From positions 1-47,399 of the forward strand of contig CANHFG010000007.1 of NCBI GenBank assembly GCA_947459875.1: a DNA stretch of 47,399 bases, in the 5' to 3' direction. The first letter of the stretch is position 1; each line of letters opens with the position of its first letter. The notes below the pieces were generated by a model. It had not been told where the DNA came from. It saw nothing but the letters and a program-made list of their open reading frames with translations, and ran no database searches. This DNA comes from Ignavibacteria bacterium (GTDB taxonomy: Bacteria > Bacteroidota > Ignavibacteria > Kapaibacteriales > Kapaibacteriaceae). Made by a program: the position numbers and the translations under genes. Shown here piece by piece: positions 45,578-47,399 of this stretch.

Positions 45578-47029
<1,452 letters not shown>

Positions 47030-47051
47030 GACGCAGAACACCCCGAAAATG

Positions 47052-47083
47052 AAACCGCCCCCCAATGGGGGCGGTTTTTTTTT
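47052..47083 (+). terminator. Strong intrinsic terminator of the metK-ahcY operon
   Basis: AAACCGCCCCC and GGGGGCGGTTT pair over 11 positions with a CAAT loop and run into an unbroken stretch of nine T. This is a textbook Rho-independent terminator for the plus-strand genes. Confidence 0.95.
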
Positions 47084-47099
47084 CACCTTGTGAAACTGG

Positions 47100-47210
47100 C
47101 GGGAACTTCTACCCTACGGCTGACATTCTCCCTGCTGTAGCACGAAACAGAAATGTGCGTGCTATATCCGACCCCGTGTGAGTGCAGACATACGGGGTCT
47201 TCTTTTTTTT
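47100..47210 (+). ncRNA. Candidate small RNA with its own intrinsic terminator
   Basis: Between the ahcY terminator and the repeat array there is no protein-coding frame of substance, yet two hairpins follow one another. One is TAGCACG/CGTGCTA (47138-47144 with 47158-47164). The other is the terminator GACCCCGT/ACGGGGTC (47170-47177 with 47192-47199) with a TTCTTTTTTTT tail. A second terminator so soon after a strong one suggests a separate short transcript starting after 47083. The promoter is not clear and no known RNA family was recognised. The 5' end given is a guess. Confidence 0.35.
47170..47210 (+). terminator. Orphan intrinsic terminator
   Basis: GACCCCGT and ACGGGGTC pair perfectly over eight bases with a 14-base loop and are followed by TCTTTTTTTT. 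No T-run is present on the opposite strand side, so it works in the plus direction only. Confidence 0.85.
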
Positions 47211-47232
47211 ACGGCGGACTTCGTAAAGGCGA

Positions 47233-47255
47233 TACACGTATGGGCGATACGTGTA
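47233..47255. repeat. Perfect 9-base inverted repeat before array 3
   Basis: TACACGTAT and ATACGTGTA face each other across GGGCG, immediately before the first (incomplete) palindrome unit. Its right arm merges into GTAGGGG, the array edge. Confidence 0.7.
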
Positions 47256-47399
47256 GGGGCGAGATATGTAGGGGCGAGACGCAGTCTCGCCCGAAGCAAC
47301 ATGTAGGGGCGAGACGCAGTCTCGCCCGAAGCAACATGTAGGGGCGAGACGCAGTCTCGCCCGAAGCAACATGTAGGGGCGAGACGCAGTCTCGCCCGA
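47253..47399 (+). repeat. REP-like palindromic repeat array 3 (at least four units, 35-base period, runs off the window)
   Basis: A truncated half-unit (GTAGGGGCGAGA, 47253-47264) is followed by full palindromes at 47272-47292, 47307-47327, 47342-47362 and 47377-47397. The spacer GAAGCAACAT plus GTAG is identical between copies and unlike those of arrays 1 and 2. The last unit is cut by the window end, so the true copy number is unknown. No gene is seen from 47030 to the end. Confidence 0.95.

Follow-up and report, generated by a model that had tools for sequence, protein, structure and literature searches.

A very probable small RNA gene with a promoter-like sequence and its own terminator downstream of ahcY in a bacterial family of the Bacteroidota

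The window, that is, the whole stretch of 47,399 nucleotides analysed here, is one contig (C7) of a genome in 150 contigs, and its end is the end of that contig. On its forward strand, the ahcY gene (3' end at 47029) is the upstream neighbour of two intrinsic terminators. Terminator 1, on the metK-ahcY side (47051-47083), consists of a 12-pair stem (47051-47078) and a T run up to 47083. Terminator 2 (47170-47210) is formed by an 11-pair stem with the 8-nt loop AGUGCAGA (47170-47199) and the T run TTCTTTTTTTT (47200-47210), and its stem starts 92 bases after the end of the first one. A further predicted hairpin precedes it on the same strand at 47136-47166 (z −5.05 in the window sequence). The original prediction had described this second complete terminator behind a strong one, as well as the hairpin before it, and both were found again. 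The predicted small RNA (sRNA) would extend over 47135-47208 of the forward strand, about 75 nt, with terminator 1 outside it and the hairpin at 47136-47166 as its 5' hairpin; these ends are deduced from the anatomy of the locus, the 5' end being set 7 nt past a −10-like box and the 3' end inside the T run. Further downstream, positions 47247-47399 of the window are occupied by a dispersed repeat (GTAGGGGCGAGACGCAGTCTCGCCC...) in copies arranged head to tail, and a query including this repeat gave 38 genome matches, with the window among them and several close to the ends of contigs.

The interval downstream of the ahcY terminator showed a folding energy of −44.3 kcal/mol versus −30.1 ± 3.4 in dinucleotide shuffles (z −4.2), a value equalled by 0 of 200 shuffles. 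A consensus terminator scan was not above chance (4 in 3.4 kb versus 2.5 ± 1.5 in shuffles). GC-rich 10-pair stems with an 8-nt loop are rare, with 21 cases in 845 kb on both strands, that of the sRNA included, and 15 of them outside called genes. The own terminator by which bacterial intergenic small RNAs can be recognised is present as an 11-bp stem, a T run and covariation of the stem, and the T run is weaker in some relatives (e.g. G003, G005 and G007).

The ahcY genes of relatives and the DNA downstream of them were compared, and searches by DNA similarity, pattern and covariance served to trace the hairpin. Twelve sequences formed the alignment A1, from which the covariance model R1 was built. 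In A1 the terminator 2 stem presents two-sided changes in 7 of its 11 pairs, with 97.7% of cells paired; its covariation score is 0.544 versus 0.237 when shuffled, and double-change cells number 26 versus 8.1 in shuffles, slid controls giving 0-2 pairs. The measure of further pair types showed no excess over shuffles for this stem. The loop is nearly fixed as the 8-nt RGUGCAGA within G-RGUGCAGA-C, with a C for R in G002, and part of this constancy reflects ascertainment, as loop patterns led to the first detection of nine members (two mismatches or fewer allowed in one search). Regarding the 5' hairpin, it is predicted in 16 of 16 loci, beginning 0-6 nt after the predicted 5' end (mean z −3.06), and its sequence varies between subclades; the shuffle fractions range from 0.000 to 0.153 and exceed 0.05 in three of the 16 loci (G005, G006 and G015). 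Both stems, whose lack of conservation in relatives would have spoken against the original prediction, are conserved: the second one shows covariation, and the first recurs as a hairpin by prediction, though its sequence is not kept.

Searching 60 genomes with R1 at E ≤ 6e-7 located the sRNA in 16: the genus contributed 10 of its 11 genomes, the rest of the family 6 of 12 and the remainder of the order 0 of 37, where the best match outside the family reached only E 0.004. No match at this threshold was obtained in G004, from the genus, or in six family genomes. Twelve of the 16 positive genomes had also trained R1; G016 and G021 were known beforehand by their hairpin, and G012 and G020, newly found by R1, carry the same loop. 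When a sample of 294 genomes of the class was searched at E ≤ 0.01, 31 matched, 10 of family f1 and 21 outside it, the latter from E 3.9e-5. Two of these 21 were inspected by sequence and rejected as sRNA, since the best one (G308, E 3.9e-5) sits within a 304-codon frame and the loop of the other (G127) differs. Judging from these searches, the sRNA appears convincingly nowhere else than in the family within this class sample. In the comparison with named genomes, none of the matches listed (80 loci) was better than E 0.016 with R1.

Upstream of the hairpins, at 47102-47127 of the forward strand, lies an ECF-sigma-like promoter sequence, GGAAC followed by 18 bases and ATT, which was recognised by its conservation in the loci of the family. 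Of the 16 family loci, 15 have GGAAC-N18/19-RTT in the 100 nt before the loop, with the boxes 18-19 bases apart, the distance expected for an sRNA read from an ECF promoter. The background of this motif in an 845-kb sample is 5.0e-5 per strand-base, so only about 0.004-0.005 chance matches are expected per upstream zone. Moreover, the GGAAC and C-R-TT columns of A1 are invariant (R aside) and the spacer has no invariant column. The promoter motif was not used in finding 14 of the 16 loci, which first came to light through DNA similarity or through patterns of hairpin and loop. In G016 the motif was not found at the expected place, and the transcript start was set there by distance. If transcription begins 7 nt past the second box, the predicted RNAs measure 75-84 nt across loci. 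According to PMC6338062, the promoter boxes are GGAAC (−35) and GTC (−10) for sigma-E of E. coli, and GGAAT/C and GTT for sigma-H of C. glutamicum. The likeness to ECF promoters of this sigma-E/sigma-H type consists of the GGAAC box, with GTT there and ATT or GTT here after 18-19 bases; unlike them, no wider regulon was found here.

The place beside the SAM-cycle operon had been proposed as a functional clue, and this idea was not supported, given that an intervening gene or about 2-4 kb was found between ahcY and the sRNA in eight genomes and that in two others (G014 and G019) ahcY adjoins gyrB with no match to the sRNA model. Four of the eight, all of the genus (G003, G005, G006 and G007), have an acetyltransferase-like gene (assigned by eye) in convergent orientation between the two, and in G002, G012, G015 and G020 the distance is about 2-4 kb; in G016, ahcY and the sRNA are on different contigs. 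Since genes or kilobases separate them in several genomes, the sRNA is not an ahcY tail. A cis-regulatory leader or riboswitch would call for a co-directional gene just downstream, but the next long gene is convergent in the relatives inspected, and the window stops at the end of its contig before such a gene. This right-hand neighbour is often gyrB, as named by eye from its C-terminus.

The position between convergent genes in the relatives inspected and the good T run in the window would also fit a terminator 2 that only backs up terminator 1 of ahcY in tandem, or one that serves as a collision terminator where genes converge, as ahcY and gyrB do. This is improbable considering that the hairpin is kept despite the intervening gene or the kilobases mentioned above, and that a back-up terminator has no need of a fixed loop, a promoter-like motif or a 5' hairpin, and that the hairpin is unidirectional, its opposite strand being without a T run. 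The other alternative is a small protein-coding gene. The interval between the terminators had been described as free of open reading frames; in the strict sense this is not so, because a 62-codon ATG frame (47153-47341) crosses terminator 2, but neither its start nor its C-terminus is kept in relatives. The frame through the hairpin reads P-T-P-x-E-C-R-x-x-G-S in many genus members, in some of them after an ATG, and 9 of 16 loci have an in-frame ATG inside the transcript as predicted. However, G009 lacks any accepted start codon, the frames vary from 19 to 189 codons with unrelated C-termini and continue through the terminator T run, and the changes in the stem compensate as pairs and not as synonymous codons. 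A small protein as the product is therefore very hard to sustain and a protein-coding locus is unlikely; covariation of the stem together with the lack of a conserved open reading frame is what would be expected of a conserved non-coding RNA.

The region 47084-47210 is very probably a real, hitherto unnamed small RNA gene with a promoter-like sequence and a terminator. The comparison supports a conserved gene with stem covariation, a fixed loop, a promoter-like motif at a fixed distance and, through its changing neighbours, independence from ahcY, in agreement with the independent small RNA gene put forward in the original prediction. We infer its actual transcription, the sigma factor involved, a role in stress and an action in trans via the loop. 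Taken as a whole, the locus (47100-47210) is likely to encode a stand-alone sRNA of 75-84 nt, driven by a stress sigma factor and acting via its terminator loop.

Rfam 15 gave 0 matches in the window at the gathering score, and at a loose cut-off the matches lay far under it (e.g. anti-hemB, 16.3 bits versus 49.5, over 47121-47207). Four sRNA loci and four loci of the second RNA described below (R2) matched tRNAs only. The enterobacterial RNAs MicA and RybB silence mRNAs of envelope proteins by means of a conserved seed at their 5' end and bind Hfq or another chaperone; in contrast to them, the conserved element of the present sRNA is the terminator loop and not a 5' seed, and there is no Rfam match here. 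The features that the predicted sRNA shares with these sigma-E-dependent RNAs (PMC1804206) are the short length, the ECF-type promoter (GGAAC as −35 box) and the own terminator hairpin. A narrow literature search for small RNAs of Kapabacteria, the presumed lineage, found no paper, and among the papers listed nothing relevant was recognised on Bacteroidetes ECF promoters or small RNAs, RNA motifs of Ignavibacteria, or ahcY together with an sRNA. On this limited basis the sRNA appears to be undescribed in the literature.

Concerning the way it could work, an ECF sigma factor, that is, one of the group IV stress sigma factors, would read GGAAC-N18-ATT and the transcript would start near 47135. 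The RNA would then form two hairpins, one at its 5' end and a GC-rich one at its 3' end that doubles as terminator, and the transcript would finish near 47208, within the T run. The terminator loop RGUGCAGA could act either as a seed pairing with mRNAs that contain UCUGCAC or as a protein-binding loop, and it is probably the working surface because it stays fixed while its stem freely changes sequence.

The function of the loop was explored in an unbiased 845-kb sample, in which 663 genes were called. The seed complement TCTGCAC was seen 9 times near the starts of these genes (−40 to +60), versus 7.4 expected from a Markov model and 4.3 from gene bodies, which is no clear enrichment. These counts do not support a broad seed regulon and leave room for a few targets. 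In four genus genomes, seed-complement sites had suggested some early-CDS positions in secreted-protein genes, G009 being covered by 12 regions for 21 sites; enrichment was not confirmed in the 845-kb sample, and these sites, like others near gene starts, were left out of the evidence. A perfect match to the loop complement early in a patatin-like gene was likewise rejected as target evidence, since only 4 of the 11 genus orthologues retain it.

A promoter regulon was not apparent in the same 845 kb either. Three of 19 matches to GGGAAC-N18/19-RTT were noncoding, one of them the sRNA's own, compared with 0 of 12 and 0 of 16 when the spacing was altered; with GGAAC-CRTT, 3 of 31 matches were noncoding, and the controls had 4 of 34 and 3 of 31. 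Two matches of the promoter motif lie upstream of genes, before sufB and before an NADH-dehydrogenase-like gene (both named by eye), and the one before sufB looked accidental. Furthermore, Sigma70_r2 matches numbered 9 in G000, 9 in G007, 8 in G001 and 21 in G013, the primary sigma factor presumably included. All 47 sigma-domain genes were scanned for an upstream autoregulatory copy of the promoter and none was likely, the nearby matches falling within open frames; one case (L336, in G013), where this frame has only 114 codons, is less certain. One ECF gene is preceded by GGAAC-N18-GTT in three genus genomes and in G013, but this stretch is coding sequence of the preceding gene and was discarded, also as a sigma-54 promoter, since it encodes K-L-A-R-V-L. 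With no seed regulon, sigma regulon or autoregulation seen, the mechanism beyond transcription is one that we infer.

The search with the sRNA hairpin also caught R2, a separate RNA with a similar hairpin and the loop AGUGGUGA, represented by L363 (G000:C52:13021-13121, forward strand) and the alignments A2-A4. At E ≤ 0.01, the model R2 matches 58 of 99 relatives from families f1, f3-f5 and f7-f10, not f2. It is mostly single-copy, with one match in all but three positive genomes; of the three surplus matches, two fall on sRNA loci. The broader model R3 added a copy in f6 (G027) and matched 23 of 395 genomes of the phylum at E ≤ 1e-4, all of one order. Outside the genus, the R2 core is nearly invariant, roughly GUGAAAGGUGAG-AGGGGAGUGCC-stem-GAGUGGUGAC-stem-GGCAUCUCA with GAGUGGUGAC as the loop, and two-sided changes occur in 5 of 14 pairs. 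One R2 locus compared with Rfam gave no match at E ≤ 1. As judged from these alignments and searches, R2 is an order-restricted structured RNA absent from Rfam 15 in the loci tested. The sRNA and R2 have equal stem length and loop size and similar loops. R2 differs in its promoter region, its conserved 5' core, its occurrence in other families and its frequent position upstream of an amidohydrolase-like gene, an order seen in many genomes of f1 and f9, with an obgE-like gene instead in the f7 genomes inspected (genes named by eye).

This likeness raises a special case of the small RNA reading, in which the sRNA would be a mimic or decoy of the older, order-restricted R2 hairpin and both would compete for one binding protein. 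The two GC-rich stems (CCCC..GGGG) are closed by G-C and bear 8-nt loops, RGUGCAGA in the sRNA and AGUGGUGA in R2, and, the sRNA itself apart, the sRNA model scores best at the R2 locus in all 11 genus genomes (E 0.009-0.29). With approximately 21 hairpins of stem 10 and loop 8 per 845 kb and odds of 1 in 2048 for the loop, a match by chance is estimated at about 0.03 per genome. Nevertheless, the resemblance came from searching for resemblance, the E-values are weak, and the reverse search with the model R2 reaches E ≤ 0.01 in only 2 of 10 genus sRNA loci (G006 and G008). In addition, R2 is present outside the family without the sRNA, and no binding protein is known. Mimicry is thus an unlikely refinement. 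Its specific version, in which an sRNA made by an ECF sigma factor under envelope or oxidative stress would use its RGUGCAGA hairpin to titrate a putative RNA-binding protein off the AGUGGUGA hairpin of R2, is likewise doubtful; if mimicry were true, the pair would constitute a switch of two RNAs and one protein.

Little work seems to have been done on small RNAs in this group of Bacteroidota, and an sRNA kept at family level, whose promoter is probably of the stress-sigma type, would provide a defined entry point to them. Its short fixed loop predicts the place where a partner would bind, and the same search has revealed R2, a separate order-wide structured RNA, absent from Rfam in the loci tested, whose function lends itself to testing.

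Two minor observations concern neighbouring subjects. AhcY appears in two lineages within one order, with about 76-99% identity to the window protein in f1, f3 and two f9 genomes and about 45-53% in most other genomes, G086 (f2) showing 63-66%; this split suggests gene replacement or transfer. Finally, in the locus L299 (G001:C39, some 25-175 bases past 26153), a palindrome-like ACTAGGACTAATTTAGT stands beside TATATTTG directly before sufB, the first gene of the suf operon as assigned by eye, an arrangement that we take to resemble an Rrf2-type site on a Bacteroidota promoter.
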